From Acholoe squamosa (taxonomy: Eukaryota > Annelida > Polychaeta > Phyllodocida > Polynoidae), in NCBI GenBank assembly GCA_949317995.1, contig OX439042.1:16037174-16101173 (forward strand): a stretch of 64,000 nucleotides of DNA, written 5' to 3'. This document shows, piece by piece, positions 38,725 to 56,050 of the stretch (position 1 is its first letter; the number at the start of each line of letters is the position of its first letter). Both the position numbers and the translations under genes were made by a program. The notes under the pieces were generated by a model. That model saw nothing but the letters and a program-made list of their open reading frames with translations. It was not told the origin of the DNA and made no database searches.

Positions 38725-40539
38725 CTAGGCTGTTTCCACAGTCACCGGGGAGGGCTGGTGGTTTAGAAAATTAGCAATAGTCTGCATGTTTGACCTTGCG
38801 GTCTCCTCCTGTTGTTCGTCAATAATTATATCTGTTGTATTTTCCAGTGCTGTCATGGTCACCGGGCTGGTGCCACAATCATTCTGGAGAAGCATGGAGT
38901 AGTACAGTCCTTTGTTTTTAAGGGCTGGTATAGTACTGAACCTAGTGCGCCAAGGTAGGTGTATCACCTGAGGGAGGTGATAAGCAAATTCTCCTCTCTG
39001 TGTTGTTATAACTGCTGGTCCATTCCAGGTAAATATAGCCTTAGGTAGTGGGAAGGTTTTAACCACTATATCCTTATAGGTAGGGGCAGCTGCTGATTTA
39101 ATCTCATCAAATTCATGTGGTATTGGCCTCAAGGGTAGCGCGAAGTTTGAGTCTCCACAATATATTTTAAAATATATTGTGGGGTTTGTGCGCTTGGCCA
39201 CATTTTTCTTGCCACAGTGTGTCTGTGCAAATTTCTTAAGGTACTTCATTATTCTGTAGGCTGAGTAGATGGTCAGGGTGAATAATATAGCAATTATCAG
39301 GGTGTGGGTTTCCTGAATTGTGAGGAAAGGGGTGTGGGTTTCCTCTGTAGGGGTTAATTTGGTAGGATTCTTATCTGGGAGCAATTTGTGTAGGGGCAGC
39401 TCGTTGACTAGTCTGAATGCCTTGGCTGTAGGCAGGTAGGCTACAGTCCCTCCTAGTCTGTATAATTTGAGTAGTATGTATACTATAAAAATGTGAGCTG
39501 ATATCCCTAGGATGAGTGCTAAGCTTTGGAAGATTGGATGCTCTGTAACTCGACGTAGGTATGATTCCTCGTAGCGTGATTCCATTTCCTTATTAAGGTT
39601 GGAGGCATCTTTTAATACTGTTTTGGCAAAGGGCTCTAAATTCAGTTGAGTAATATCATCCATGATTGGATTTTCCTGTAGTTTTTCTAAGGTTCTAGAA
39701 AGGTTTACTACTGGGAAATTTGGAAGATTCTCTCTTTCATCTGGTTTGGTTTCAGAAATTTTGTTAAGTGCTGCCATGAATGGTAAATTAATTGTCTTGA
39801 GAATGTAATGAAATGATAAGGTTGAGTTACAGGGCAACCTTGTGTTTGGAAGAGAAAATTCTCCTACACTGATCGTGCACCCACAGGGTACACCTATGAT
39901 TGAGTAGGACTGGGCTTTTCGAGTTTCAGACGTTTTACCATGGCAGTTGATAAAGTAATGGGGTTCATTAGTAGTGACCAGATACTCATCTTCAGAAATG
40001 GAAATAGCATGGGTGGTAGGTGCTTGCAGTGGTGAAACTGTAAACTTGCAATGTTCCTTAATCTGTTGAGCCTGGTTAGTAAAAATGGCTACAGGGCATG
40101 TAGGCCTGTGTTTATAGATTCTACCATTTACATCTCTGCATACCTTTACTGTAGTACCTTCACATGCCTGCATATCTGCTGAGTCCAATTCGATAAATAA
40201 TGATTCATCGTAAGATACTGCTAGAAACTCAGTTGTGGTTTGTAATTTGGTGATTCCTCTGGTGGGGGTCTCCTGTGTGTCTATAGGCATGGGTGATGTA
40301 ATCATTTGGTACAGTTTGAAGGTTGAGGTGGTAGATTGTATTATAATGTCCAGATGAATATATATATGGTGAGCTGAGTAAGTGTATGAGGTCAGCTTCT
40401 GTGAATAATAGAAATCTAAGTCATTAATTGCGACTTGTGCTCCAGGGTGTGTGATCCTAAGTTTGTTATTAATGTCAATTAAGTATCTAGCAAGGTCTGA
40501 GGGTGGTACTATATCAGGGGTTAGGATTCCTGATGATAG
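38725..40539 (-). pseudogene. env: Element A env-like gene, C-terminal part (interrupted)
   Basis: About 604 codons read from the insertion point to a TAG at 38725. The part is Cys-containing ectodomain, with several cysteines (for example PCGCTISVGEF), then a membrane segment around 39470-39550 (AHIFIVYILLKLY), a linker, a second membrane segment around 39250-39310 (LIIAILFTLTIYSAY), a basic stretch and a long tail of about 130 residues. The first 14 codons of the longer open frame come from the LTR of element B and are not part of the gene. The frame agrees with the N-terminal part at 54407-55220 once the 4-bp duplication is discounted. The gene is broken only by the insertion. Confidence 0.8.
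40536..40539. other. Target-site duplication ATAG, left copy
   Basis: ATAG stands directly left of the LTR of element B and recurs at 54407-54410 directly right of element T. Neither B nor T alone has matching flanks. Confidence 0.8.
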
Positions 40540-40904
40540 TGTAGGGGCCGGTATCGTCGTATATATATTAGTGCCGTTCATCCGAGAGACGTGTTCGTGT
40601 GGTGCCTGTTCCTTCTATGCCAGCTAGGTGTCGCTTTGTGATACCCCGTTGGTACAAGAGGGGGCGGCACCATGCCTCGCGTCCAGCTCCTACTAAGGAG
40701 CCGGACGAGCGGCAGAAGGTGACTGGATCTAGTCCAGTCCAGACGCGCAGCCTAACCTGTAGACTAGAGTGGAATAAAGTCCTACCCGAGAGGTAGGGGT
40801 TTCTGGGGCTTTGCCCAACCCGAACTACTTGTGTTGTGTTGGTATTTCTAGTGGTAAGCGAGCCAAAGAGCCACCCAACATATAAGTCAATACGAACCAT
40901 TACA
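40540..40904 (+). repeat. Element B 5' LTR
   Basis: TGTAGGGGCC ... ATTACA, 365 bp, repeated at 53051-53415. It has a TATA-like TATATATATTA at 40560 and AATAAA at 40773. Short open frames in it have no supporting features. Only two base differences from the 3' copy were seen, indicating a recent insertion. Confidence 0.95.
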
Positions 40905-40905
40905 C

Positions 40906-40917
40906 TGATGCCGTGAC
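40906..40917 (+). other. Element B primer binding site, tRNA-His-like
   Basis: TGATGCCGTGAC begins one base after the LTR. A site for animal tRNA-His would read TGGTGCCGTGAC, so 11 of 12 positions agree. The A at the third base would mismatch the terminal CCA, so the copy may be slightly damaged or tolerate it. Confidence 0.55.
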
Positions 40918-41067
40918 CAGTTGGTTCGGGGGTGGTGCGCGGCCACATTGGCCGAAAGCCTCGGGAAACCCGAAGCGGATCCCCCCAGCCCTGGGCTAGA
41001 GGGATTCGAAGAGGATGACTTTACATCCCAGCATCTGTTGTTAGACTGGAAACCCAGTCAACAACAA

Positions 41068-44007
41068 ATGTATAATCCGGCGGGTGTCCGAACTGTTTTC
41101 TCGACACCTGGTCTGATGGACGGTGCCACAGGTGAGGGTATCGTAAACTTGTATCCGGGTACACCCCGAATGGGAGTACCGGATACGGGATTGTTCAAGG
41201 GAATAGTAAAACCCCCAACTTTAGACCTGAGTGATTGGTCCCAAGCTATAACTAGTAGACGCCAGCTGTGTCCTATTGTACCAGCAGGCTCGGCTAGCAA
41301 CTTGGGTACACCAGTGGCACAAAGCCCTGGAAAACGTACTGCGACCCTCCCAATAGCAGTACCGGATGGTGCAAACGAGGTACCCCCATTAATGACATCG
41401 TCGGACCATGAGAGCGATGATGTCAAAGCCATAAGGGACACAATAGTCCCAAGCATAAATGCGAAGAATAAGCCTAGGGGTGCCGAACCGAAAAGCTCGG
41501 AAAGGCATCACTTAGGCCGATCGCTAGATGAAGGCTTGTCTGACTCCATGTTTAATCCTGGAGGCAGTCGCAGGTCTATATACGGACGTCGGATGGGCCC
41601 TGGGTATAAAACTACCCCGGCCTATTTGAAAGCCAAAGAACAGGTAGAGTTACAAGCTAAGCGGCAACATGAACAATTCATGGCGGCCCAATTAAAAATA
41701 GAAGAGGAAACTAAGTCTCGGATCGGAAAATTACGTTCCGAGGAGCAGGAGGCGATTCTAAAAGAATCTGACCTAAAGTATCGTCTAACTTCGGCAACCC
41801 ATCGTTTGGAAAGGAAGGAGAGAGACGAACTCGAGAAAGAGAAAAGATTGGCTGAGTTGGAACTCGAAGAAGCCAATAGACTTAGAGCAATCGAAAAGGC
41901 TAGAGCCGAAGAAGTTGCTAAGGCCCGGGATGTAAACAGATTACAATCCGAGTTGCATGCTATGGAGGAGAAGCTGAAGAAACTTCAACTCCGAAAGGCG
42001 GAGACCGAGGCCAAATTGGTCTCGGAACAAGCCGAGATAAGGAAGGAGACCAACGAGTATCAAAGGTCTCAGAAAGAAAAAGGTGAAAAGTACCGCTTAC
42101 TAAAGGATACTTTTAAGCGGGAGGCTTTAGCCGCTCAGGAAGAACGAAACCGAGCTGTGGCGGAAAATGAAAAGATTCGATCCGAAATCTTAGCAGAAAA
42201 CGCACAGCTGAGGGAGGAACAGCGAAACCTGACCACAGATCTAGCTACCCTCACAATAAATAAGTCTGCCATGGAGAGTTATTTACAAGAGCAGGAGCAA
42301 GCGAATGCCCCTCCGGCGAGTAAGGACACAAACCCGAACTCGACTTTCGTTAAACAGGGCGACCCTGTCTCCTGTTCTACGCCGAAGCATCCGCCGTATA
42401 ATCCATTTGTCAATGATAATGCGACGCGGAATGTAGATCAAGGGGGAGTTTATATTAGAACCCAAGATAAACATGGCCGAACTAGTAGAGTCCGGATAAG
42501 TGAAGTGCCCATAGTTCACAATTTGGACCCGGACTATGTACCACGGGAAGCCTCTGACAGCAGTGCAGAGACTAACGGATTCCACATACATGTGGATCCG
42601 AGTGACAATGTGGGGTTGGGAGCTGGTAATGACAGCAACCAACCCAATCCATCAAACGATGGCAGTCATCCGACAGGTAACCAGCCTTCTAGCGGCGGTT
42701 ATCAAAGCACACAAGGAGGGGGCAGTACCCCGGGTCCCACAGGCTACAGTGGTACCTCGGGTCCTGGCCCTAACCAGGGTGGCGCGGGTTATACGAACCA
42801 CAGTGTCCCACAGTGGACGTATACTCAGCCACCACCACCACCTCCACCGGGCAATACGAGCTTCGGTGGTATAGGGAGCAACCGAACCTTGAATGAAACA
42901 AAGGCGGTTGAATGGAGCAAACAGCAATGCACTAGATTGATGTATGCTCATAATTCTGCCCGAAGGGTAGCCGTTATTCCAAAAGAATATGACGGTACTC
43001 GACCATGGAAAGAGTGGTTTGAAGACTTCATCGACGTGATGAATTGTAATGGGTGGACCCCATACAAGGCCAAGCCACATCTGGTAAGATGTCTGAAGGG
43101 CGGCCCGGGTCGCATGGCTGTAGAGCAATGGCGAACCTGGTACGGTCTCGTTGGAAGTTTTGAGCAGTTGGTAGAATCTGCTAGTGGACTGTTATGCAAC
43201 ATGGTCAAGGAGGACCCGATGGTCCGTTTCAAGAAGCGAACACAGAAGCCCAACGAAGCTTTTCGAGCATACGGTATGGAGCTCCATGCCCTGCTAAGCA
43301 AAGCCAGACCCGGTACTGAAAACCAGGACTGGTATATGGACGATCTGATTACCCAATTCGTCAAGGGTCTGAGAGACCAAGATGAGCAGGTTGCTGCCAG
43401 GGATGCCTGGAAAGAAGGCGTAACACTTCACGACATATTTAATGGTATAGATATGGCCGTGAAGAAGCGAACAATGTTAGCTGGTGACATACCGAATGCC
43501 AGCCGCTCGGCTCCCCTGGTATCGGTAGTCCAGCAGTCTGAGGTGCAAGTCCCCTCAGATGATTTTGAATTGATTGAAATCGAACAGGAGGACGGAACCT
43601 TCTGTTCGGTCCAATTAAGGAAGAATACTTCGGGCAGGAAGTATATTCCTAGGAAATCTTTTAATAAGCTAAGGGACTCAAGACCACCACCCGAGGTCAA
43701 GAGTGACCAGAAGGCTAGTGAGAAGGCATCCAAACCTTTAGCAAGCGCCGATAAATCGAAGGGTCAGTCCCCGGACATGACCAAACTTATGGAGGACATG
43801 TGTAAGAAAATTACAGATGCCATCCAAGCCAGTCGGCAGAGACCCCGAGTGGATCGCCGAACTGTAAAGTGTTTTAGATGCCAACGCATGGGACACTATT
43901 CGTCTGAATGTACCGCTGCTAAACCGGTAATGGCTGCCTTCTATGAACCCGAAGACAACGGCGAAGGAAGGGAGAACACTACGGATTCCACTGATGTGGA
44001 AAACTAG
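41068..44007 (+). CDS. gag: Element B Gag
   Basis: About 979 residues from the ATG at 41068. The frame is open back to 40921 but without an ATG. A charged N-terminal region leads into a long coiled coil (about 41640-42300, Glu/Lys/Arg/Leu-rich), then a Gly/Ser/Pro-rich linker with a run of nine prolines broken by a few bases, then a retrotransposon Gag core (about 42970-43340, with WKEWFEDFIDVMN). Near the C terminus is one zinc knuckle, CFRCQRMGHYSSEC (C-x2-C-x4-H-x4-C). Gag forms the particle and binds RNA. It is longer than usual because of the coiled coil. It stops at TAG where the pol frame begins one base back. Confidence 0.9.
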   Translation: MYNPAGVRTVFSTPGLMDGATGEGIVNLYPGTPRMGVPDTGLFKGIVKPPTLDLSDWSQAITSRRQLCPIVPAGSASNLGTPVAQSPGKRTATLPIAVPDGANEVPPLMTSSDHESDDVKAIRDTIVPSINAKNKPRGAEPKSSERHHLGRSLDEGLSDSMFNPGGSRRSIYGRRMGPGYKTTPAYLKAKEQVELQAKRQHEQFMAAQLKIEEETKSRIGKLRSEEQEAILKESDLKYRLTSATHRLERKERDELEKEKRLAELELEEANRLRAIEKARAEEVAKARDVNRLQSELHAMEEKLKKLQLRKAETEAKLVSEQAEIRKETNEYQRSQKEKGEKYRLLKDTFKREALAAQEERNRAVAENEKIRSEILAENAQLREEQRNLTTDLATLTINKSAMESYLQEQEQANAPPASKDTNPNSTFVKQGDPVSCSTPKHPPYNPFVNDNATRNVDQGGVYIRTQDKHGRTSRVRISEVPIVHNLDPDYVPREASDSSAETNGFHIHVDPSDNVGLGAGNDSNQPNPSNDGSHPTGNQPSSGGYQSTQGGGSTPGPTGYSGTSGPGPNQGGAGYTNHSVPQWTYTQPPPPPPPGNTSFGGIGSNRTLNETKAVEWSKQQCTRLMYAHNSARRVAVIPKEYDGTRPWKEWFEDFIDVMNCNGWTPYKAKPHLVRCLKGGPGRMAVEQWRTWYGLVGSFEQLVESASGLLCNMVKEDPMVRFKKRTQKPNEAFRAYGMELHALLSKARPGTENQDWYMDDLITQFVKGLRDQDEQVAARDAWKEGVTLHDIFNGIDMAVKKRTMLAGDIPNASRSAPLVSVVQQSEVQVPSDDFELIEIEQEDGTFCSVQLRKNTSGRKYIPRKSFNKLRDSRPPPEVKSDQKASEKASKPLASADKSKGQSPDMTKLMEDMCKKITDAIQASRQRPRVDRRTVKCFRCQRMGHYSSECTAAKPVMAAFYEPEDNGEGRENTTDSTDVEN
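43995..44007 (+). other. Gag-Pol -1 frameshift window, element B
   Basis: The pol frame opens after TGA at 43992-43994 and gag stops at 44005-44007. A -1 shift must therefore happen inside about 13 bases. They contain GGAAAAC just before the TAG, close to but not equal to a canonical slippery heptamer. A 14-bp palindrome, GGGGTGCGCACCCC, in GC-rich sequence lies about 120 bases downstream, too far for a classical stimulator. Confidence 0.6.
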
Positions 44008-47000
44008 TGGGGGTTGTATCAACGGCATCTGATACGACCCCATGGAAGAACGAATGCCAAAATGCTACCGGGGGTGACCCGGTGGAAGATTTCGAATCAA
44101 TAACACCTGGAGGCCGGGTGGCCGGGGGTGCGCACCCCTGCACCCTGGCCGGGGCCGGGGACCCTAGTGTTTATATGTATGAGGGTGAGCGTATGGAGGC
44201 GAGTGGCCACACTAGGGGAGAGGAAGGATGGATCAAAGAGTTGATCCGAGTGTGTGGGACATGCCTTCCCCCAAGTCATCCGTGTCTGGAATTCTTGAGA
44301 GGACTCGGATTGAATCTTGGTGATTCGGGAGACTTTCACCAGTTTACCAGTAACCCCTCACCCTTAGGGGGGAGACGGTGGTATGTACCCATATCTGTGG
44401 AAGGCCGGGTAGGAGAATTCTTGGTGGATACTGGAGCTAGCCATTCCTGTGTGTCCAAAAGGTTCTTCGACTCGGTGGCCAGCAGCCATGAGAACCTCAA
44501 AACAGGGGTAAATGCTTGCACGGCCGACGGAAGCAGTATGCATACATTTGGTATGACGTTTATGCCTATCCGTATAGGAGGCAAAGAATTCGTTCTTTCG
44601 CCAACTATAGCAGAGGTTAGTGATGACGGAATCCTCGGACTGGATTTTGCAAGTTTATACGGGGCCGTCTTGGACCGGAGGGACGGTATGATGAGTATAC
44701 GGAACCCGTATGGCTTGCATGTCCAATGCGTATTGAGACAGGTGTCTTCGGTCGCATCAGTGATACATACGGTGAAGATCCCACCGGGTACCACTTGCGA
44801 TGTCCTTTGTGGCGGGTCCATGGCTCAAAGGAATGAAACTGGAGTCTATGAACCCGATACGGTGTACTTGTCGCGTGTCGGGTTGGACTCAGTGGATACA
44901 TTAGTGGCTAATGCAGCTTGGACTGTATTACCCATGACTAACCGAAGTGGTTCAGTAGTCTATCTGAGGCGAGGCGACTGTATTGGGAGGATGAGCTCGG
45001 TAGAACATGTCGCCGAGGCAAAATTCAATAAACCACTGAACCCTGTTAGTAAGCATCCTTTGGATGAAGAATTCCAAAAGCTGATTGATCAGTCCGATTT
45101 AGAAAATACGGAAGATAAGGATTGCCTGTCGAAACTCCTACAGAAGTACGAGAGTGCTTTTGGTAGGGAGGGAGGACCGGTGGGTAGATCCGATAAGGTG
45201 TTGCACACCATAGATGTGGGCAACGAGAAACCTTTTAAAATTCCGTATCGTAGACTTCCTCTAAAGAAGAAGTTAATTTGTGAAGAGGAAATACAAAAAC
45301 AGCTAGACCTAGGGGTAATCGTGCCCAGCTCGAGTCCCTGGTCTAGCCCTGTTTGTATGACCACTAAGAAAGACGGTACAATCCGCTTCTGTGTCGATTA
45401 TCGGAAATTGAACGGTATAACAAAGAAAAACTCGTATCCTTTACCAAGGATAGACGAGACTTTAGATAGCTTGGGCGGGAACCAATGGTTCTGTACCTTG
45501 GATCTACAGTCCGGGTATTGGCAAATACCGATGCACCCCGATGACAAGGAGAAGACAGCATTCTCCAGTCATATGGGGCTATTCGAGTATAACGTCTTAC
45601 CCTTCGGATTGTGTAACGCCCCCGCTACATTCGAGGCTATGATGGAATCCTTACTGAGTGATCTTTTGTGGAAGAAATGCCTGGTTTACTTGGATGATGT
45701 GGTCGTGTTCGGCAAGTCGTTCAAGCAATGCCTGGTGAATCTGCAATTGGTCCTCGACCGGATACTATCAAACGGTCTTAAACTTAAACCCAAGAAGTGT
45801 AATTTGTTTAAGAAAACCATTACATACTTGGGAAGGATCATTACTCCTAACGGAGTGAGTGCGGATCCGGAAAAATTGGAAACCGTAGAGACTTGGGAAA
45901 GACCCACGAGTGCTAAGGAGGTGAGATCATTTTTAGGATTTTGTTCCTATTATCGTGATTTCATACCAAATTACTCTCGTGTGAGCTTCCCCATGCAGTG
46001 TCTAGCTCACTGGACTCCGGGTAGGGCACGGGACCCATTCCCATGGACCAGCGAGCAAGAAGAATCTTTTAATAAAATAAAAGATTTGTTTAGGAATACA
46101 CCAGTGTTGAAATATCCCACTCCCGAGGGACATTTCATCTTAGACACCGATGCGAGCAATGATGCAATTGGGGCAGCTCTCTCTCAGGTCCAAGAGGGAG
46201 TCGAAGTGCCGATAGCATTTGCTAGCAACACGTTAAGCAAGACACAGCGAAATTATTGTACCACCAAACGAGAACTCCTCGCTGTGGTGGTGTATACGAA
46301 GAAGTTTAAGCATTTCCTCTGGGGAAGTGACTTTACCTTAAGAACCGACCATTCGTCCCTTAGGTGGCTCCTTAATTTTAAGGACGCCGAGGGGATGATA
46401 GGACGATGGTTAGCTCATCTATCCGAATTCGGATTAGAGCATAAACAGATAGAGCACCGACCCGGTACTAAACATATCAATGCGGATGCCTTGTTGAGAC
46501 GACCCATCCGAAGGTGCCAGAATGCCACTTGTGATGACTGCGGGGCCCACAATGCTGTGGTAGCCGGGTTGGTATTTAATCATACCACCCCCCGTATCCC
46601 CTGGGAGGAGGCTGTGTGCAGCTATCTTGATTGGTCCCCGGAAACGATCAAGAAGTTCCAACAGTCGGATCCCACCACAACTCGCATAATGGAATACCTA
46701 CGGTCAGGTATTAAACCGGCAAGGCCGCTAGTATCCCTAGAGGATAGGGAGGCGAGGCGATTGCTAGCCCAATGGACCGAGCTAGAGATCCGAGACGGCA
46801 TACTGTGCAGGTGGAAGACAACTCCCACCAATGGTATGCTGTTGCAAATAGTGATACCCACCCCGATGAGGAGGGATATCATGTATTATTGCCATGGCCA
46901 TCAAACAAGTGGCCATTTCGGTAAGAAAAGGTCAATAGAGCGCCTACAAAGGCGTTACTACTGGCCTGGTATGAGAGGCGACCTGCTTCGGTGGATCGCC

Positions 47001-48242
47001 ACTTGCCCGGATTGCTGTAAAAACAAGCCGGGACCCGGCCTGGGTAAGCAACCCCTATCCCAGGAATTGTTTGGTGTCAGATTCGCTCGAGTGGCGATAG
47101 ATATCATCAGTGGAATTAAAACAACGCCCCGAGATAATACTTGTATGATGGTAGTGACCGACTATTATACCAAGTACACTCGGGTGTTTCCCCTTCCTAA
47201 CCACAAAGCCGCCACGTGTGCGGAGGCATTTGTGAAAGGCTGGGTGTTACATTTGGGTGTTCCCCTTATGATGCACAGCGACCAAGGAAGGGAGTTCGAG
47301 TCGGAGCTATGGCAGGAAATGTGCCATTACCTAGCCATTTGCAAGACCCGAACAAACCCATACCGACCACAGTCGGATGGGCAGGTAGAGCGTTTCAACA
47401 GAACCCTCATACAAGTGCTAAAGCCCCTGGTCAATACCCACCAGGACGACTGGGATGAACAGTGTGAGTTTGTGGTACATGCCTACAACAACACTGTCCA
47501 TTCATCCACTAATTGCACTCCCAACCTGCTAGTGTTCGGCGAGGACATCATAATGCCCGCCGACTTAGTGTATGGAGTGGTTGGTATAGACCCGGAGGCG
47601 CCCTGCACTGTGTTGTTTGTGGAGTCATTAAGGGACAGGTTCAAACAGGCATACGAGGCCGTTCGTAAAGAACTGCTGAAGAGTGCGAAGTTGCAGAAGG
47701 TGGGTTATGACACCAATGCTAAACGAATTCGTTTTAATGTAGGGGACAAAGTCCTAAGGTATTATGAGCCGCTGGAGAAGCTGAAGCTCGTAACGCCTTG
47801 GGAAGGTCCGTTTAAAATAATTCGTGTCATCTCCGAATCTACGGTGATGATGGAGGACTGCCTAACTGGTAGGAAATGGAAGACAAATGTCGGAAAACTT
47901 CGGCCCTGGAAGGGACGCGAAGAGGCGGAGAGGGAGTTCGGCTACAAGCCACCTGTATCTGTCCCTAGCGGACCGAGCGTGGTAATACCGACAAAACGCC
48001 CTACAGGCCGGCCGAGAAAGACGCCGGGAGACGAGGGTATGGTGAAAAAGAAGACGAAGGCCAGGAAACGACCTAATCGTAAGAAAAGGAAAAATGTCTC
48101 GCTGAGTGAAGGCATTACGTATGGGAAGGTGCCCGCTGTGGCCAGGCGGAATCCAGAGAGGGCCGTACGTAAAGCCGGGAAAAATAAGAGGCTAACCGAA
48201 GGCGTTAGACGCAGTCCCCGGTTGAGGTCTGCCGTAACCTAA
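44007..48242 (+). CDS. pol: Element B Pol: protease, RT, RNase H, integrase
   Basis: About 1411 residues, made as a Gag-Pol fusion by -1 frameshifting (no ATG at the start). In order: aspartic protease with DTGA near residue 140; reverse transcriptase with YLDD near 561; thumb; RNase H with DTDAS near 713 and LRTDH further on; integrase with an H-H-C-C zinc domain near 962-1007, catalytic AIDII near 1029, SDQG near 1092 and VERFN near 1127; a GPY/F-type module (WEGPFKI) near 1267; and a Lys/Arg-rich tail that could act in nuclear entry. All catalytic motifs are intact. RNase H before integrase is the Ty3/gypsy order. No chromodomain seen. Confidence 0.95.
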   Translation: MGVVSTASDTTPWKNECQNATGGDPVEDFESITPGGRVAGGAHPCTLAGAGDPSVYMYEGERMEASGHTRGEEGWIKELIRVCGTCLPPSHPCLEFLRGLGLNLGDSGDFHQFTSNPSPLGGRRWYVPISVEGRVGEFLVDTGASHSCVSKRFFDSVASSHENLKTGVNACTADGSSMHTFGMTFMPIRIGGKEFVLSPTIAEVSDDGILGLDFASLYGAVLDRRDGMMSIRNPYGLHVQCVLRQVSSVASVIHTVKIPPGTTCDVLCGGSMAQRNETGVYEPDTVYLSRVGLDSVDTLVANAAWTVLPMTNRSGSVVYLRRGDCIGRMSSVEHVAEAKFNKPLNPVSKHPLDEEFQKLIDQSDLENTEDKDCLSKLLQKYESAFGREGGPVGRSDKVLHTIDVGNEKPFKIPYRRLPLKKKLICEEEIQKQLDLGVIVPSSSPWSSPVCMTTKKDGTIRFCVDYRKLNGITKKNSYPLPRIDETLDSLGGNQWFCTLDLQSGYWQIPMHPDDKEKTAFSSHMGLFEYNVLPFGLCNAPATFEAMMESLLSDLLWKKCLVYLDDVVVFGKSFKQCLVNLQLVLDRILSNGLKLKPKKCNLFKKTITYLGRIITPNGVSADPEKLETVETWERPTSAKEVRSFLGFCSYYRDFIPNYSRVSFPMQCLAHWTPGRARDPFPWTSEQEESFNKIKDLFRNTPVLKYPTPEGHFILDTDASNDAIGAALSQVQEGVEVPIAFASNTLSKTQRNYCTTKRELLAVVVYTKKFKHFLWGSDFTLRTDHSSLRWLLNFKDAEGMIGRWLAHLSEFGLEHKQIEHRPGTKHINADALLRRPIRRCQNATCDDCGAHNAVVAGLVFNHTTPRIPWEEAVCSYLDWSPETIKKFQQSDPTTTRIMEYLRSGIKPARPLVSLEDREARRLLAQWTELEIRDGILCRWKTTPTNGMLLQIVIPTPMRRDIMYYCHGHQTSGHFGKKRSIERLQRRYYWPGMRGDLLRWIATCPDCCKNKPGPGLGKQPLSQELFGVRFARVAIDIISGIKTTPRDNTCMMVVTDYYTKYTRVFPLPNHKAATCAEAFVKGWVLHLGVPLMMHSDQGREFESELWQEMCHYLAICKTRTNPYRPQSDGQVERFNRTLIQVLKPLVNTHQDDWDEQCEFVVHAYNNTVHSSTNCTPNLLVFGEDIIMPADLVYGVVGIDPEAPCTVLFVESLRDRFKQAYEAVRKELLKSAKLQKVGYDTNAKRIRFNVGDKVLRYYEPLEKLKLVTPWEGPFKIIRVISESTVMMEDCLTGRKWKTNVGKLRPWKGREEAEREFGYKPPVSVPSGPSVVIPTKRPTGRPRKTPGDEGMVKKKTKARKRPNRKKRKNVSLSEGITYGKVPAVARRNPERAVRKAGKNKRLTEGVRRSPRLRSAVT

Positions 48243-48750
48243 CTCAGTACACAACGAGCTGCTGCGTGTTGTCCGCCATAGTCGGGTAACATATGTCCAC
48301 GGCTGGAGATGCCGAACGTGCCCTCCCCGGGGAGCTGTATCCCGCGAGCGGCGGTCGGATTAACCGGTACATTCGCTTTGAAGCGTTGTATACACCGCCA
48401 AACTCCAGCAGATAGCACTCGGGTGGTAGGCCGCGTCCCGCATGTCGAGTCGAATGTTAGTTCGGATCTAGTTCCCTAGGTGGCGCCGCGGGTGCGGCGG
48501 GAAAGGTTGGAACTAGGTCACCGGATAGCCACGGCGGGATCTCGCGAGGCGAGATACGTGACGTCATACTGGTCATAACTAGAGCGGACTCGTGGTGGTT
48601 AGACGCCACCCGTTTTTGCTCTAGTTGTTGTTGGCGGTTTACAGGCCCCTAGCTGTCGGTTAGCTTGTCTAACATCACCTTTTGTTGGACGAATCCTTCG
48701 GGAGGAGTCCAACACAGACGCCAAATTATTTGGAAGTCGCCCTCAGTGCC
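48243..48750 (+). other. Element B spacer between pol and third gene
   Basis: About 500 bp of GC-rich sequence without its own gene. It would be the 5' leader of the third gene. The frame of that gene is open from 48682 but its first ATG is at 48751. A splice acceptor for a subgenomic RNA could lie here. I cannot choose one. Confidence 0.5.
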
Positions 48751-51531
48751 ATGGCACAGGGGACGATTGACGCCGCGCGTCAAACTGCCAACGTTCTGTT
48801 GGAGGTAGGCGAGGACCCGAAGGTCCCGTCTCGGGTCGAGGAATCTATGGATTCTTCGACAGAGGAGGCCGCCCGGACGCTCTCGGCTATGGCCGAGGCC
48901 ACCGACCGGGAGAGGATGCCACCTCCACCACCACCACGCCCGGAGCGCTCGTCTGCAGCAGCTGCTTCGGGTAGCAAAGTGGATGTCCTGGACATTCCAA
49001 TGTATCCTCCGGGATTCAAGACTCGGATCGAACGTATGGCACACGTCGATCGCGAGGCCGGTGTTGTGTACACCTCCTGGGGGACCTACATCCCCATGCA
49101 CGCCTCCATGTTCGGATGTGGACCAATGGCGGTGGAGCAGGGTGTGCCCGAGCCCATACCAGATGATTTCAAGACTCTGGTAATGGACTCGTGCAGTGAC
49201 GAGCTGGCTGACAATATGCCAGTTTCTTGGCTCCGCAACTATCTGAAGTTAGCGGAGAATATGGCGGTGAACGAGAGTCTGGCCCGAGCCGTCTTGATCT
49301 CTGAGGGCATCACCCGAAAGGCCTCAGAGTTAAGGGAGTCCGAATCCGATATGGATACAGACTCCACAGTAACCTTGTCGTCGGTGGAAACCGACCGGGT
49401 CAAGCGATTGACCCGTAAACCTGCGCCTAAGGGTCCTCTCACTGAGAGCGATCTGGAGGCTGAGGATGTCCGCATCGCCGTCGAGAGGTCCACAACCGAG
49501 ACCGACCCAGCTGCCGACATCCCGGAGGCACCTGGCGAGATCTCGGATGAGGACATCTCGCGCCAACAGGCTGCTGTGGAGGCAAAGCGAGCCGAGCTTG
49601 CCAAGCAGCAGAAGGAGCTCACCGCAGCTCGCCGGGCCCATCGCAAACAGCAGGCCCAACAGAAAACCAAGGTCTCTTCCGACTCTGACTCCCCGGTCAG
49701 CGGAAGGAGGAGCCCTCGTATAGAGGACCGGAATCGACGGGAGTCGGATTCCAGCCCTGAGATGCCGGCGCAGCCCACCAAGGTTCAGCGCCGGAAGAAA
49801 AAGAACGGAGCGAAAGCGTCTCCCGCAGAACCCACACCCCCCACCAAGCCGAGGGGTAAGGGTCAGCCGAAGACGCCCGCCTCCACCACCACAACTACAA
49901 CCACCACAGTAGCCACCTCGGCTGCAGCTTCCACTGCCAGCACCAGCGGAAAAGGCGCCAAATCCTCTGCCAAGGCTTCGGCTGGTACTACCACCACCAG
50001 CCGAGCGAGCCGTAGGGGAGCTGGTATCTACACGGACAGTGAGGATAGCGACAGCGATCCAGAACTGCCCGAGTCGGCCAAATCTGATTTGGAGTCCGTG
50101 ACAACGTGGGAAGAGATGACCACGGATGTCCCAAAAGACGACAATCAGAAATGGATGTGGAAGAATGCAGCCGAAGGGTTCAAAGAACGGACTCCTCGCT
50201 GCTTCGCGGACTGTGCCTACGACACGGTCCATTACATGTGTCCCGGCGCCGTCAATAAGGACGGTGACAGCGATGACGAGGAGTGGATGAAATCCGGCCC
50301 CTCGGATACGCCTGTAGGTAAATTCTACCTCATTTGGATTGACCAGCTGAAATCCAAATTGGGGTCGATTTACAGCTACGAGGCCCGGACGAAAGTTCAG
50401 TGGGCAATGACCCAATGGGGACCAACCGGCAGTCGCCGACGGTGCCCATTCGAGTCATGCCAGCTGGCTCTCACGGGTGAGAAGATGTTCGAGACGAAGC
50501 CTCGCTTCGCTCGCCACATTGTTGAACATCACATGCACCACAAGCCTGTGATGATGTGTGTGCTTGGGGACCGCCCGAGCAAACATTGTGATGGATCGTT
50601 CAGCACTCACCGGCGCCGAGACATGGCTCTGCACTTGCAGAAGGCCCATGGCATCGGCCTGGAGAAAACCAGGAAACAAGCCATCAAGTGCTTCAACGAG
50701 CTCCTAGCTAACTGGGCCTCGTTGAGCATTAAAGACGTCAAGGAGCAGGCATTCGAGACCGGATTCTGCTCATGGAAGAGCGGCAACTTGTTGACCTTCT
50801 TCCAAATCAACTTCTCTTCCACGAAGTTCGGGATGCCCAGTGAGGTGCACCTGAAGGTAAAAAAGTGGCGAGGAGATGATAAGCGAGAGAAGGCCAAAGC
50901 CCGCTCTAAGGGTCCCGGCGGAGGCACAACAACAGCTACCGGTGCTTCCAAGAGGACCCGAGCAGACCGGTCCGTGAGCCCTTCGGGTGGCAAGGACCAG
51001 CCAAGACCAGCTAACCCAGCTGATCGTCGCGAGTCGGGACAACAAGTCTCGGCTCTGGATATGCCTAGCAACCAGGCCCATAGGTCGAGTAGCCAGGCAG
51101 CCGCAACGGCGACTCCAGCCACCACCACCTCTACACCTGCACCCGCGGAACAACGCCCGGGCGAAGCCACTGGCAGCCAGGATGGTGGGGGCGAACTCTT
51201 CGCTCCCCCATCTGGGATTCTTCTTGGTGGGCCGGAGAGGGATCTTCCGGCAAGCGCCCCACGTATAGTGAGTACGCGGCGAAGTTCCCCGCTATGGGAC
51301 CAGCTGGACCCGAGTCGCAGGTCCTTACCTCCCTGGGCCGGACCAAACCCCGTGGTAGAGGCCGTGGTGGGCTGGAGTCCACCCGAGCTTCCCCGGGCGG
51401 TGGCCGAGGCCGGGGCGGTCTTACGGTTGAGGGCCCGTCTGCTCCTCCAGCAGGTACTCCACCTGCCCCAGTGGAAGCCACCGCGCCTCCACCAGTCATT
51501 GCTCCACCAACGGGCCCTCGGTTACCCCTGA
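48751..51531 (+). CDS. Element B accessory gene 1, C2H2-like zinc-finger protein
   Basis: About 926 residues from an ATG in GCCATGG. It sits where an env gene might be expected but has no signal peptide or membrane segment. It has a Pro-run near the start, a conserved-looking block (IPMYPPGFKTRIERM), long acidic/Ser and Lys/Thr low-complexity linkers, and a globular region about 50100-50880. This region holds two Cys/His clusters: CPFESC followed by HIVEH (C-x4-C-x18-H-x3-H), and CVLGDRPSKHC followed by HLQKAH (C-x9-C-x14-H-x4-H). These resemble C2H2 fingers and suggest DNA or RNA binding. The Ala/Thr/Pro-rich C terminus overlaps the next gene. I do not know the family. Confidence 0.8.
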   Translation: MAQGTIDAARQTANVLLEVGEDPKVPSRVEESMDSSTEEAARTLSAMAEATDRERMPPPPPPRPERSSAAAASGSKVDVLDIPMYPPGFKTRIERMAHVDREAGVVYTSWGTYIPMHASMFGCGPMAVEQGVPEPIPDDFKTLVMDSCSDELADNMPVSWLRNYLKLAENMAVNESLARAVLISEGITRKASELRESESDMDTDSTVTLSSVETDRVKRLTRKPAPKGPLTESDLEAEDVRIAVERSTTETDPAADIPEAPGEISDEDISRQQAAVEAKRAELAKQQKELTAARRAHRKQQAQQKTKVSSDSDSPVSGRRSPRIEDRNRRESDSSPEMPAQPTKVQRRKKKNGAKASPAEPTPPTKPRGKGQPKTPASTTTTTTTTVATSAAASTASTSGKGAKSSAKASAGTTTTSRASRRGAGIYTDSEDSDSDPELPESAKSDLESVTTWEEMTTDVPKDDNQKWMWKNAAEGFKERTPRCFADCAYDTVHYMCPGAVNKDGDSDDEEWMKSGPSDTPVGKFYLIWIDQLKSKLGSIYSYEARTKVQWAMTQWGPTGSRRRCPFESCQLALTGEKMFETKPRFARHIVEHHMHHKPVMMCVLGDRPSKHCDGSFSTHRRRDMALHLQKAHGIGLEKTRKQAIKCFNELLANWASLSIKDVKEQAFETGFCSWKSGNLLTFFQINFSSTKFGMPSEVHLKVKKWRGDDKREKAKARSKGPGGGTTTATGASKRTRADRSVSPSGGKDQPRPANPADRRESGQQVSALDMPSNQAHRSSSQAAATATPATTTSTPAPAEQRPGEATGSQDGGGELFAPPSGILLGGPERDLPASAPRIVSTRRSSPLWDQLDPSRRSLPPWAGPNPVVEAVVGWSPPELPRAVAEAGAVLRLRARLLLQQVLHLPQWKPPRLHQSLLHQRALGYP

Positions 51532-52268
51532 TGGAGTTAATTTCGGATACGCTGTCAGGTCTTCAGGATCCGAACACGTTTGTTGACCACAGAGATGTCC
51601 AAACGGTTCACATCCAGAATGAGCTGATGGCGGAGTGGCAGGCATTGCACCGCCAGAAGTCAGTCGACTACTGGCGGGCGATGACTGAAGCCACCCTCAA
51701 TCTGGTATACGAAATCCAGAAGAGGGAGGAAGACAAGCTCAGGCAGCTGGAGAAGGACAGAGTCCAGGAGGCTCTCGAATCCTGCCGGCGTCAGCAAAAG
51801 GAAGCCGAAAAGCTTAAGGAGTTTCACCAAGCTGAAAACGCCAGATACATCCATAGGTTTAAGGAGGCTGACCTCAAGTTTTTCCTGGCATTCGGGAAAC
51901 ATCTGGAGGAGTGGGACGGCTTACCGTCGTCCCTTATCTTCATACCAGATGTACCCCCGGATGCCCCGCCAGCCCCGGCTACTCCACCGGTTCTGGCCAC
52001 TCCACCGGTCCCGGCTGCTCCGCCAGTTCCGGCAGCTCTCCTGCTCCCGCCCCCTACCGTCACCCGGACTGTTACAACTGCCACGGTCGCTTCACCAGCA
52101 TCCGAGGCAATGGACAGTCCATCCGCGGTGATGAGGGCCTTGAGCTTGGAGGGCGATACGCCCAGCGAGGCTTCCGCGGCGCTCTCTACGAGCAGCTGTA
52201 GCAGCTCGGCTCCATCTGCCTCAATGGAGTCGGCTGAGAAGATGGACACGGATCCGGAAGATCTTTAA
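51294..52268 (+). CDS. Element B accessory gene 2, RG-box and coiled-coil protein
   Basis: 324 residues from an ATG at 51294, overlapping the previous gene by 238 bases in the -1 frame. The N terminus is Arg/Gly-rich (RGRGRGG twice) and Pro-rich. A charged coiled coil follows (about 51640-51880, with EIQKREEDKLRQLEK), then repeats of the type TPPVPA, and a Ser/acidic tail. It resembles RNA-binding or particle-associated accessory proteins only in composition. The overlap and frame mean it may be made alone or as a -1 frameshift extension of accessory gene 1. Function unknown. Confidence 0.7.
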   Translation: MGPAGPESQVLTSLGRTKPRGRGRGGLESTRASPGGGRGRGGLTVEGPSAPPAGTPPAPVEATAPPPVIAPPTGPRLPLMELISDTLSGLQDPNTFVDHRDVQTVHIQNELMAEWQALHRQKSVDYWRAMTEATLNLVYEIQKREEDKLRQLEKDRVQEALESCRRQQKEAEKLKEFHQAENARYIHRFKEADLKFFLAFGKHLEEWDGLPSSLIFIPDVPPDAPPAPATPPVLATPPVPAAPPVPAALLLPPPTVTRTVTTATVASPASEAMDSPSAVMRALSLEGDTPSEASAALSTSSCSSSAPSASMESAEKMDTDPEDL

Positions 52269-53036
52269 GTGTCCATCTGACGGTGTCTCCTTTGTACCCG
52301 AGGGTAAAAGCATTTAATATGCCAGAGGCACTGTTCCTTACGCTGGACTCCTGATATCTGGAACGTAACCTGCAGCGAAGATGGACGCTAAACCCGACAC
52401 ACCAAAAAGGGATTACCACACCTACCCGGGGCTCCATCTTCCCATCTTCATCAGGGCACATCACAACAGCAACGTGGCTTGCCACCACACATATGTCGCC
52501 GGATGGAGCTGCAGAAACCAGTCGTTCCAGATTCGCCGGAAGTCCGGTATATTGTAAGGGTGATCCTGCTACCCTGGTAGGACACCTCTATTTGTCAGTA
52601 TTATTATTTTTGTATAAATATATTTTTATACCAAATATGTATTTTTGTAATTAAAACAAACAAATTTTTCTCTCGGGTTATATACCCCACCTCGGGTCGG
52701 TTGGTTAATACTGTAAAATTTTATTCATATCGCCTGATTACTCGTCTATGACTTTTTAATGCGTCTTGTTTATAATAATAACACTATTGTAACACTGTTA
52801 CTACACATCACCATAGGTCGATGGTGCATAAGGCGCCACTTCCTATTTGTTATTATTAATTACCACTACTTCGGGTTATATGCGACGATGCCTCATTATG
52901 TACATATTATTTATAATGCCCCTAAATGTTCTATATGCTATACGAACTGTATATATAGACTTACCTATTTGTGTATAATATTATTGTATAAAGCTAACAA
53001 TAGGTATTTATTAATTACACCCAACCCTAGGTATAG
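52269..53036 (+). other. Element B 3' untranslated region
   Basis: About 770 bp after the last gene, becoming AT-rich from 52590. The ORF at 52759-53055 has no domain and is AT-driven. No further gene seen. Confidence 0.6.
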
Positions 53037-53050
53037 TCTAGTGGGGGTGG
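53037..53050 (+). other. Element B polypurine-like tract
   Basis: TCTAGTGGGGGTGG directly precedes the 3' LTR, the expected position for the plus-strand primer. It is G-rich rather than a pure purine tract. Confidence 0.5.
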
Positions 53051-53415
53051 TGTAGGGGCCGGTATCGTCGTATATATATTAGTGCCGTTCATCCGAGAGA
53101 CGTGTTCGTGTGGTGCCTGTTCCTTCTATGCCAGCTAGGTGTCGCTTTGTGATACCCCGTTGGTACAAGAGGGGGCGGCACCATGCCTCGCGTCCAGCTC
53201 CTACTAAGGAGCCGGACGAGCGGCAGAAGGTGACTGGATCTAGTCCAGTCCAGACTCGCAGCCTAACCTGTAGACTAGAGTGGAATAAAGTCCTACCCGA
53301 GAGGTAGGGGTTTCTGGGGCTTTGCCCAACCCGAACTACTCGTGTTGTGTTGGTATTTCTAGTGGTAAGCGAGCCAAAGAGCCACCCAACATATAAGTCA
53401 ATACGAACCATTACA
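53051..53415 (+). repeat. Element B 3' LTR
   Basis: Matches 40540-40904 at an offset of 12511 over its whole 365 bp. AATAAA at 53284-53289. It ends ATTACA and is followed with no spacer by TGTCGG, the first bases of element T. Confidence 0.95.
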
Positions 53416-53568
53416 TGTCGGGGCCAGCTCTGGCTGTAAGTCCATGGCGGTAGGCCATCTGCCCCGTTCCGGTTGCACCAGCCCTCAGGGGCTGGTCAGC
53501 TGGTATAAGCTGCCCCCCTTGTGTATTATACCGATCCAGATGTAGGTGGAAGGTAGAGAATGTCAGAC

Positions 53569-53640
53569 GGGGAAGTAGCTCAGCGGTAGAGCTTCCGCCT
53601 GCAGGTTGGAGGGTCCCGGGTTCGATTCCCGGTTTCTCCA
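53569..53640 (+). tRNA. tRNA gene inside LTR, anticodon GCA, Ala-type acceptor
   Basis: 72 nt with a full cloverleaf. Acceptor GGGGAAG/TTTCTCC (seven pairs, G3-T70 and G7-T66 wobble), T8 A9, D arm GCTC/GAGC with loop AGCGGTA, anticodon arm TCCGC/TTGGA (four of five pairs, C-T mismatch next to the loop) with loop CTGCAGG, variable loop GGGTC, T arm CCGGG/CCCGG with loop TTCGATT, A73, no encoded CCA. Box A TAGCTCAGCGG (53576) and box B GGTTCGATTCC (53619) are intact. The anticodon GCA (53601-53603) reads Cys codons, but G3-U70 and A73 are alanine identity elements, and tRNA-Cys normally has U73. It is likely transcribed by Pol III. Whether it is charged is unknown. Its 3' end fits the primer site at 53666. 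Confidence 0.85.
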
Positions 53641-53645
53641 GGACA

Positions 53646-53649
53646 TTTT
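53646..53649 (+). terminator. Pol III terminator after the LTR tRNA
   Basis: TTTT begins six bases after the tRNA 3' end, the normal distance for a nuclear tRNA gene. With boxes A and B it completes an autonomous Pol III unit inside the LTR. Confidence 0.75.
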
Positions 53650-53665
53650 CCGCCGACCTCTACAC

Positions 53666-53679
53666 TGGTGGAGAAACCG
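53666..53679 (+). other. Element T primer binding site, complementary to its own LTR tRNA
   Basis: TGGTGGAGAAACCG starts one base after the LTR. It is the exact complement of the last 11 bases of the LTR tRNA (53630-53640) plus the CCA that is added after transcription: 14 of 14 positions. The TGG part cannot be copied from the gene, because the gene lacks CCA. This supports pairing with a mature tRNA rather than a simple inverted repeat. Confidence 0.88.
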
Positions 53680-53870
53680 AGTTGGTCCTGACCCGTGTGA
53701 GGGGGGACTACGAGAACTCGGTACCTGGGCTTGTATGACACGAATGACGATTCAATTTGCTAGTACTGGGGAGACTTGGAAAGAGGTGGCCGGTATGCGA
53801 CTCAGTACTAGTCCCGGGTATCTGGTACCTATAGGGTACTGAACCCTATATTGAATCTGGTAGGGAGGAG

Positions 53871-54010
53871 TGTAGGGGCCAGCTCTGCCGTAAGGCCAGC
53901 AGCCCCGTTTCTGGAGATCCCAGCCCCCAGGGGCTGGTATCCGGTGGTAGCTCCCCCCTACGTGTGTGTCATACCAATCCAGGTGTAGGTTTCTGGAACG
54001 GTATAATACA
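53871..54010 (+). repeat. Diverged third LTR-like copy in element T, without tRNA
   Basis: TGTAGGGGCCAGCTCTGCCG onward matches the first half of the T LTR with many differences and is preceded by the same GGGAGGAG tract (53863-53870). The likeness ends near AGGTGTAGG, before the tRNA would start. The segment may end at GTATAATACA (54010). It looks like an older, tRNA-less LTR relic inside the element. Confidence 0.65.
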
Positions 54011-54149
54011 GATACGCTTCGACCCTGGCAGTACTGTGTACTGGTAGGTCAACTGGGAAGTCAGGAGTGCCTCACACTGCTTGATAAAGCCCAAACCGAT
54101 CTGGTTGGGAGGAATGCTTGGTGCTGGTTGGCCATGGTTGAAGCTGGTT

Positions 54150-54157
54150 GGGAGGAG
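54150..54157 (+). other. Element T polypurine tract
   Basis: GGGAGGAG directly before the 3' LTR. The same eight bases stand before the LTR-like relic at 53871. Confidence 0.75.
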
Positions 54158-54310
54158 TGTCGGGGCCAGCTCTGGCTGTAAGTCCATGGCGGTAGGCCAT
54201 CTGCCCCGTTCCGGTTGCACCAGCCCTCAGGGGCTGGTCAGCTGGTATAAGCTGCCCCCCTTGTGTATCATACCGATCCAGATGTAGGTGGAAGGTAGAG
54301 AATGTCAGAC

Positions 54311-54382
54311 GGGGAAGTAGCTCAGCGGTAGAGCTTCCGCCTGCAGGTTGGAGGGTCCCGGGTTCGATTCCCGGTTTCTCCA
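54311..54382 (+). tRNA. tRNA gene inside 3' LTR, identical to the 5' copy
   Basis: Same 72-nt sequence as 53569-53640, including boxes A and B, anticodon GCA (54343-54345), G3-T70 and A73. Both copies would give the same product. The identity follows from LTR copying during reverse transcription. Confidence 0.85.
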
Positions 54383-54387
54383 GGACA

Positions 54388-54391
54388 TTTT
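54388..54391 (+). terminator. Pol III terminator after the 3' LTR tRNA
   Basis: TTTT six bases after the tRNA, as in the 5' LTR. Confidence 0.75.
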
Positions 54392-54406
54392 CCGCCGACC
54401 TCTACA

Positions 54407-54410
54407 ATAG
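54407..54410. other. Target-site duplication ATAG, right copy
   Basis: Partner of 40536-40539. It shows that B and T behave as one inserted unit. Confidence 0.8.
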
Positions 54411-55220
54411 CATCCTCAGGGCTGCATTTGTCCTTTGCAGTGATTGGACTGTATTCATTCTTGCTGCTATGATAATTAATGCATCATTTAATACTTGCAT
54501 TTTCTCCCTTTGAGTTTTCTCGTGCCTTGAATATGAGTCAAGTGACCTGGACATGTTAGAGGCCCACAGGTTGACGGTGTCACCTATGGTGTTGATTGTG
54601 CTGTCTAGTACCTTCTTATCTTGGATGTATGCTTTAACAAACTTATCTTGTCTGTCTGTGATCTTTTCAATGAGATTAGCTGCTTCCTGATCCTGTTTAG
54701 CAAATTTTCTTAGTATTTCATCTATGTTCTTGAGCTGTCCCATTACTTGGTTTACATCTTCTACTGTGGCTAGACCTAGCACACCGCGAAACAGGGGTGC
54801 TAGAAAACCCAGTATGGCCTCTCTTTTGGCCTTGTCCAGTGTGTTTATGGGGTTGGATAAGAACAATTTGATGGAGGCTAGTGTTTCATTTATCTCCTTG
54901 TCTGCAATTTCCAGCAAGGTGTCTAGCTCCTTAGCTTGTTGGATAATTTGGCCAGAGGTATGATCTTGTAGAGTAGGAGTGGTCAAATGGAGTATTCTAT
55001 CCCTTATGGATCCTTGGGTAACGGGTGCCCGAGGTATCTTGTAGGGGATAGCTAACAACAGTGTTGTGGTTGTATGTCCATTGACCAATGGTTGAGGGCT
55101 AGGTTTGAATACTACTCCTATGTTTTGTCTCACCACAGGTGTATAACCTGCAGTAAGTGGTTCTATAGTATATAATAACAGCATAGTTAGCAGTATGGGT
55201 GAAACTCTCAGTCTCCCCAT
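54411..55220 (-). pseudogene. env: Element A env-like gene, N-terminal part (interrupted)
   Basis: About 270 codons from the ATG at 55218-55220. The open frame extends a few codons upstream without an ATG. The first 25 residues form a signal peptide (MGRLRVSP then a Leu-rich core). A furin-like KAKR near residue 130 is followed by a hydrophobic, Gly-rich stretch (ILGFLAPLFRGVLGLA) placed like the fusion peptide of baculovirus F-type or errantivirus envelopes, then a helical region. N-glycosylation sequons are present (NETL, NMSR). The frame runs into the insertion of B and T at 54407 and resumes at 40539. It is a class I-like glycoprotein by layout only. Confidence 0.75.
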
Positions 55221-56050
55221 GGTGCTTGTGTAAAGCAAGTTTGCTGTTTAAAGTCTTGTCAAATTTGTAGTGGTTTGGTGCTGGTAAAGTCTAAGTGTAT
55301 GGTGTAACACTTTAAATGAAGTGGTTCGAACTGTACCTTTGCAAGATTGAGCTGTCTTGGCAATATGTCCGGTGAGTCTATAGAGATTGACCAGTAAATG
55401 GTAAGGTCAGGTTGAAGGTGAAGTAGGTGTGTTCTTTATCCTAGTGCAGTCTCTCCTAATGGAGAAGTGGGCTGGCTAATTCCCAAGTGGGGTCCTGTAG
55501 ACTTGTGTTCCAGACTGCAGCTGGATGAAGACTGATGGTGGGCTATGGTCCACAGTGCTTCTTATGTAGCCTACCCTACCCACATCCATTGTGGGCCTGG
55601 TATTGTTTCTCTGGAGCAGGTGCACCTAATCTCCAGTGTCTGCTACTGTGGGGGTCTATTGTGTAATCTGTGTACTGGTAATTAGCTCCTCCTGTCATCC
55701 AGGACAGCCATTCATGACCGTCTAGACAGTTGTCTGAGGGTAGCTTATAAGGTCAATTGATCTCTATAGACTGCTGTGTTGGCATAGCGCGCTCTTTCAT
55801 GTGGGGATTAGGCTTTAGACACTCCATTGTGTTACCCTTACTCTTCTTAGACTTCCTGTCTGCTTTACTTGGGGGGTCCCAGTCTTTGACCCTTTCAGAG
55901 GCAATAACCTACTGATATATTTACAAATTTGATTGGCTTTATATACATATAAGTAATTCATTATCAGTCACACATGTCTTATGTGTGGATGAAGAGAATT
56001 TGTAATACATTTTGAAAATCTTATGTTCTTTTGGTATCTCAATCTTGTTT
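55221..56050 (-). other. Element A spacer between pol and env-like gene
   Basis: About 830 bp without an ORF of note on the minus strand. It is the probable 5' leader of a spliced env RNA. No splice site could be chosen. Confidence 0.5.

Follow-up and report, generated by a model that had tools for sequence, protein, structure and literature searches.

By the accepted view, LTR elements and retroviruses start reverse transcription from a borrowed host tRNA, from a tRNA fragment or by self-priming. In LTR elements primed by host tRNAs, the primer binding site lies just inside the 5' LTR and fits the 3' end of the tRNA. A 991-bp element, designated T, at positions 53416-54406 of a 64,000-nucleotide stretch of Acholoe squamosa DNA (the window, meaning the whole stretch analysed) raises the question of whether an element can encode the tRNA that primes it, for the tRNA that matches the site of T is located in T's own LTR, unlike the arrangement in host tRNA-primed elements. 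Judged from T and its relatives across the genome, small LTR elements of this kind probably supply their own primer rather than use a host tRNA.

The two LTRs of T are 249 bp long and each contains a full tRNA gene, as the first-pass annotation of the window had claimed; ARAGORN and Rfam (RF00005, 53.5 bits against a cut-off of 29) agree. The 5' LTR (53416..53664, forward strand) starts TGTCGGGG and ends CTCTACA. Its tRNA gene, with anticodon GCA, occupies 53569..53640 (+), and a TTTT run resembling a Pol III terminator (53646..53649, +) begins five bases past it. The 3' LTR lies at 54158..54406 (+) and carries its tRNA gene, called by ARAGORN and by Rfam RF00005, at 54311..54382 (+). The LTRs are identical at 248 of 249 bases, the sole difference being T/C, and the 100% LTR identity reported for T by the repeat finder reflects rounding. 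Read from the letters, the tRNA of T has A73 and a G3:U70 pair. We take G3, U70 and A73 to be reminiscent of alanine identity; the anticodon is not that of alanine.

A single spacer base (53665) separates the 5' LTR from the primer binding site, TGGTGGAGAAACCG (53666..53679, +). The annotation had placed this site one base inside the 5' LTR with a match of 14 of 14 bases to the CCA-tailed tRNA, and the letters bear this out: TGGTGGAGAAACCG is the exact complement of ...CGGTTTCTCCA plus CCA, that is, of the last 11 tRNA bases and the added CCA. Base 15, counted from the start of the site, has no match to the tRNA. The internal region (53665..54157, +) ends in a polypurine tract, GGGAGGAG (54150..54157, +; read from the letters), which adjoins the 3' LTR; a similar tract stands ahead of the 3' LTR in L109, L119, L142 and L144. 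A further polypurine tract, GGGAGGAGTGTAGGGGCC, precedes a diverged LTR-like stretch (from about 53871 to about 53990), which gives the impression of an older LTR enclosed in the internal region. No open reading frame of at least 150 aa lies wholly within T, and one frame from outside touches its last 5 bases. Reverse transcriptase and integrase would therefore have to be borrowed, which makes the original description of a closed, self-sufficient priming system too strong; T would depend on host tRNA processing as well.

Searches of the 1.48-Gb assembly (63 contigs) show that T is one of many. The motif CNACANTGGTGGAGAAACC, comprising the primer site and the LTR end, has 1,617 occurrences genome-wide, while the reversed control has none, so the match between tRNA and primer site in T is not due to chance. 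A T arm joined to TTTCTCCA, with a next base other than G, occurs 2,663 times (control 0). Used as a query, the T tRNA returned 293 candidates, and all 40 that were scored showed 100% identity. Directly upstream of the primer site, an LTR tRNA ending in TTTCTCCA was found at 27 of the first 30 loci by position; the three exceptions are L074, whose LTR is rearranged, and L071 and L086, two copies of another repeat. Target duplications flank 25 of the 32 T-type copies whose ends a script located (23 with 4 bp and two with 5 bp); the seven without include the window copy, which has no target-site duplication of its own. LTR pairs are identical in 13 of 33 copies and at least 99% alike in 18 of 33, the mis-bounded L066 being counted among the 33. 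From the duplications and the identical LTR pairs we infer real, recent retrotransposition of the integrase type.

Conservation within the family falls on the part of the tRNA that a primer would use. Across 28 copies chosen by primer site (the 30 loci minus L071 and L086, with L074 retained), no part outside the primer site varies less than the tRNA 3' strand taken together with base 73 (mean pairwise difference 0.066). The 5' strand follows at 0.079, and the values for U3, the anticodon loop and the 17 bases past the primer site are 0.316, 0.336 and 0.378. The anticodon varies among T-type LTR tRNAs (GCA, CGA, CAA) and the acceptor end is constant, a pattern that fits the need of a primer and not that of a decoder or a bare promoter. 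Two features count against an element-encoded primer. The T-type site is conserved for two bases (AG) past the match, which the LTR tRNA leaves unexplained, and in L015 the primer site is cut to TGGTGGAGAA, yet the LTRs are identical and a 4-bp duplication is present. At G000 C1:2995619-3025993 (L032-L038), copies of the T LTR recur at intervals of about 3.7-7.3 kb, and five share one right flank; here the T LTR lies inside a tandem repeat.

The first-pass annotation had suggested a look at compensatory changes between LTR tRNA and primer site across copies, and such changes do occur. A tRNA-like T arm that is followed by TACA, any one base, TGG and then a base that is not T was found 122 times (control 13). 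Twenty of the 100 matches listed were fetched and yielded families 6, 7 and 7b, with L090 among the 20 showing no matching primer site and L108 a weak one; 12 more stretches on or beside that match list yielded families 8, 9, 10 and 11. There are thus eight tRNA-end types, T plus seven others, with ends TGTCTCCA, TGTTTCCA, ATCTGGTG, TTGGGATT, TTGGGATC, CAGAGCTT and TGATCCTA. Where the T family pairs the tRNA end CGGTTTCTCCA with the site TGGTGGAGAAACCG, family 6 pairs CGCATCTGGTG with TGGCACCAGATGCG, family 7 pairs CGGTTGGGATT with TGGAATCCCAACCG and family 7b pairs CGGTTGGGATC with TGGGATCCCAACCG. Family 10 pairs AGGCAGAGCTT with TGGAAGCTCTGCCT and family 11 pairs CGGTGATCCTA with TGGTAGGATCACTG, both at 13 of 14 bases. 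The sites of families 8 (tRNA end CGGTGTCTCCA) and 9 (tRNA end CGGTGTTTCCA) follow their own tRNA end with one other change in each copy, that is, at 13 of 14 bases in each of two copies per family. Families 7 and 7b differ by a compensatory change at discriminator base 73, made both in the tRNA and in the primer site.

Scoring was applied to 82 distinct junction sequences from the loci fetched, belonging to these eight types only, identical junctions being counted once. Matches at 9-11 of the 11 bases beyond TGG were found in 69, and 13 fall below 9. The last bases track loosely within families, with 37 of the 69 perfect at 11, 25 one base off at 10, and seven two bases off at 9; base 63 varies in the tRNA and the site stays CCG. 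Each of the 69 matched sites fits the 8-base end of its own family better than it fits the other seven ends. Matched and unmatched junctions number 44 and 8 for T, 9 and 1 for family 6, 6 and 0 for 7, 3 and 0 for 7b, 2 and 2 for 8, 2 and 1 for 9, 2 and 0 for 10, and 1 and 1 for 11. The 13 unmatched junctions are presumably 3' LTRs or solo LTRs beside a chance TGG. An earlier tally had 62 of 76 junctions matching and the other 14, L113 and L114 among them, scoring 5 or less. Outside the 82, no matching site stands beside the LTR tRNA in L108 (6 of 11 only), L113, L114, L117 or L118.

The types are not all independent. T, 8 and 9 look related, as do 7 and 7b, and about five tRNA types look unrelated, so the covariation goes back to a small number of independent events repeated over many copies. 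In an alignment of L119 (family 11) with L068 (T type), U3 and the stretch immediately past the primer site correspond, and the tRNA body and the primer site differ jointly. L172 carries a chimeric LTR tRNA with a family-7 acceptor end and a T-type anticodon arm. The joint swap and the chimera together argue that modules have been exchanged between families. In favour of a match that is an accident or a bystander, with the LTR tRNA a dead relic, some copies (L091, L094, L108) have a decayed tRNA that is uncalled by ARAGORN; matches in eight tRNA-end types, the bimodal scores and the compensatory change at the discriminator base make this explanation hardly credible.

The form of the match bears on which RNA would act as the primer. 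In Tf1, the 5' end of the RNA folds onto the primer binding site, and T would resemble Tf1 in using the element's own RNA. A comparable fold can be drawn here, in which the encoded CGGTTTCTCCA pairs with the primer site of the same RNA and the cut end primes, since the primer site repeats the tRNA 3' strand in inverted form over 11 bp, at a distance of 28 bases. However, matched primer sites start with TGG, which pairs with the added CCA, and in none of the 69 matched junctions does the element encode CCA directly behind the tRNA. The site, unlike that of Tf1, thus fits a separate, processed and CCA-tailed tRNA and not a fold, and we regard priming in cis as very improbable. Behind the tRNA, a TTTT run occurs at 4-8 nt in 66 of the 69. 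If Pol III were to transcribe the entire element, it would stop at this run. The tRNA is therefore hardly the element's promoter, and full-length element RNA would need Pol II. Pol III transcription of the LTR tRNA, then processing and CCA tailing, would be the simplest reading of these features.

A mature tRNA with the required end might also come from the host. On this account host tRNAs prime, the LTRs have captured copies of those very tRNAs and retain them as Pol III promoters, and LTR tRNA and primer site match because each goes back to the host tRNA. This is the reading proposed for Helenus (TRIMp3), whose published families use host tRNAs (PMC10886601). A pattern for Ala-type tRNAs ending in TTTCTCCA matched 13 loci (control 0). 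On C12, three of these are host tRNA-Ala(AGC) genes; the other 10 have the letters of what seem to be mutated copies of the LTR. The three genes end in CGGTTTCTCCA and fit the T site at 14 of 14 bases, as the LTR tRNA does, so T alone cannot decide between a host and an own primer. The alanine-like features of T, 8 and 9 likewise fit an origin from tRNA-Ala. All three genes are variants within a tandem tRNA-Ala array, each scoring 43.1 bits, and the full letters of one of them, L169, show a C7:U66 mispair. Ala-type matches number 186 (control 0); among the first 21 of these, 15 end in GGGTTCTCCA, four end in GGCATCTCCA and two look like chance. The commonest host end, CGGGTTCTCCA (15 of the 21 matches listed, from 186 in total), fits the T site at only 13 of 14 bases. 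The T tRNA and host tRNA-Ala also differ in the tRNA body. A host tRNA with the same 3' end, which the first-pass annotation had named among the findings that would refute its claim, therefore exists, but as three variant genes, while the commonest host end listed is one base off. At G000 C12:51451300-51476477, at least 71 genes of tRNA-Ala type stand in tandem within 25 kb, at steps often of 291 or about 390 bp.

Other families offer further evidence against a host primer. In families 8 and 9 the site pairs with the family's own tRNA at 13 of 14 bases, as compared with 10-11 for the two common host Ala ends and 11-12 for the three variants. Host-tRNA searches covered the ends of the T, family 6 and family 7 types. 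For family 7, three of six matches to a pattern for tRNAs ending in TTGGGATT (control 3; three of the four possible next bases covered) were read, and all are LTR copies, with no host tRNA among them; from the remainder, one is, by spacing, the 3' LTR of the element at L104 and one is identical in its letters to a copy that was read. Family 7 would accordingly be the best case for a primer of non-host origin. The family 6 search gave six matches (control 0), and the two that were read are known LTRs. Use as a promoter would need no acceptor end, yet the acceptor end is least variable, and the TTTT run would cut short the very transcript that such a promoter is supposed to provide. Taken together, host priming with captured LTR copies appears unlikely, though less so for T. 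The claim that the LTR tRNA is the primer thus gains from covariation across families and is held back, for T, by the host tRNA-Ala genes with its 3' end; the reading is stronger than a single copy could make it, and for T a host primer keeps some plausibility.

Two further candidate sources of the T-type site were tried and rejected. A host tRNA with the end CTCGGTTTCTCCA would explain 16 conserved bases, TGGTGGAGAAACCGAG, but none of 25 matches is a host tRNA: 24, read as short stretches, are LTR copies, a few of them truncated or rearranged, and the remaining one, at C2:62906907, belongs to L022 as its 3' LTR. GAG also follows the differing primer sites of families 8, 9 and 10, and is therefore probably a separate motif. 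A pattern for other host tRNAs ending in TTTCTCCA that avoids T-type letters, and so misses host tRNAs sharing the excluded letters, gave 66 matches (control 2); none of the 20 fetched is a host tRNA, and for most of the remaining 46 the judgement was made on the letters of the match alone. Three well-paired T arms (L149-151) belong to an unrelated repeat with no ARAGORN call. Another repeat (L071, L086, C1:105463695) carries TGGTGGAGAAACC after CGACA. In L071 and L086, CGACAATGGTGGAGAAACCC is followed by a long ORF, and the letters can also be read as a start codon; this repeat is perhaps an autonomous user of the same primer.

The architecture of T has close published counterparts. Helenus (TRIMp3), as described by Kojima in 2024, consists of TRIMs roughly 1 kb long, whose LTRs both include a tRNA sequence and which have a primer binding site, a polypurine tract and, in animals, 4-bp target duplications (PMC10886601). 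T likewise has tRNA-derived sequence in both LTRs, is short (991 bp) with two LTRs and no ORF of at least 150 aa, and has an internal region bounded by primer site and polypurine tract, with similar bounds in other families; the duplications of 4-5 bp at 25 of 32 T-type copies resemble the 4-bp ones of animal Helenus. The same paper states that complementarity between LTR tRNA and primer site was sought and not found, and reject a priming role for those families (PMC10886601). T differs here, in that the Helenus sites are described there as fitting a host and not an LTR tRNA, whereas the LTR tRNA fits T at 14 of 14 bases and matches recur in eight types. The first-pass annotation knew of no described case of a self-supplied primer; tRNA-bearing TRIMs have been published, and PMC10886601 records no match of primer site to LTR tRNA. 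The accessible part of a 2026 meeting report that cites the Helenus paper contains nothing on priming in such TRIMs (PMC12859917), and among the titles and abstract openings listed by searches of the open-licence PMC literature, none describes an element-encoded primer tRNA. Cassandra and Ajax are also small LTR elements with a Pol III gene within the LTRs, but theirs is 5S rRNA, where here it is a tRNA; the site of Ajax is said to fit tRNA-Leu (both according to PMC10886601).

Compared with Helenus by its published description, T and its relatives are, in our judgement, likely to be Helenus-like TRIMs with an element-encoded primer tRNA. Pol III would read the LTR tRNA from internal A and B boxes and halt at the TTTT behind it, and host enzymes would trim the transcript and then add CCA. 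The mature tRNA, drawn from a pool produced by thousands of family LTRs, would anneal to the primer site 25 bases downstream of the tRNA in the full-length element RNA and prime minus-strand DNA synthesis by a borrowed reverse transcriptase. The tRNA 3' end and the primer site would evolve as a lock-and-key pair, and the pair would be exchanged between families. The anatomy, the matching ends in eight tRNA-end types, the compensatory change, the conservation of the acceptor end and the Pol III stop are read directly in the DNA; what we infer from them is that the tRNA is transcribed, processed and given its CCA, that packaging and priming take place, and where the enzymes come from. One difficulty tells against the scheme: since the LTR tRNA is itself part of the presumed genomic RNA, its processing would cut that RNA. 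We lean, by a small degree, towards the broader idea of a clan of LTR retroelements with heritable primer choice, in which tRNA gene and site form a co-evolving, exchangeable module and lineages drift away from every host tRNA.

An element-encoded primer tRNA, if real, would be another solution to priming, and would contradict the sole published statement found on priming by LTR tRNAs in tRNA-bearing TRIMs. It would account for the retention of a complete tRNA, and not of the promoter alone, in these TRIMs. The natural pairs of tRNA and site, with their swaps, offer material for studies of primer and primer-site co-evolution, and tRNA gene counts in such genomes may be inflated by mobile elements.

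T abuts a larger LTR element (40540..53415, +) with 365-bp LTRs at 40540-40904 and 53051-53415. The two stand head to tail with zero bases between them, and ATAG occurs on either side of the pair (40536..40539 and 54407..54410, both +), as if they had integrated as one piece. The larger element is a possible protein-supplying partner of T. No BLAST hit between the two was found at E 1, so the suggested partnership draws on the common flanking ATAG alone. For the candidate idea that T is mobilised by the integrase of a Ty3/gypsy partner, the observations are the same two, a shared ATAG and no sequence similarity. The primer site of the larger element, TGATGCCGTGAC at 40906-40917, presumably resembles the complement of tRNA-His with one change. 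Open frames at 38725-40614 and 54402-55247 (-) flank the pair and, on visual inspection, resemble an envelope-like gene in two parts, which may belong to an outer element whose repeat copies are at 34916 and 62757.
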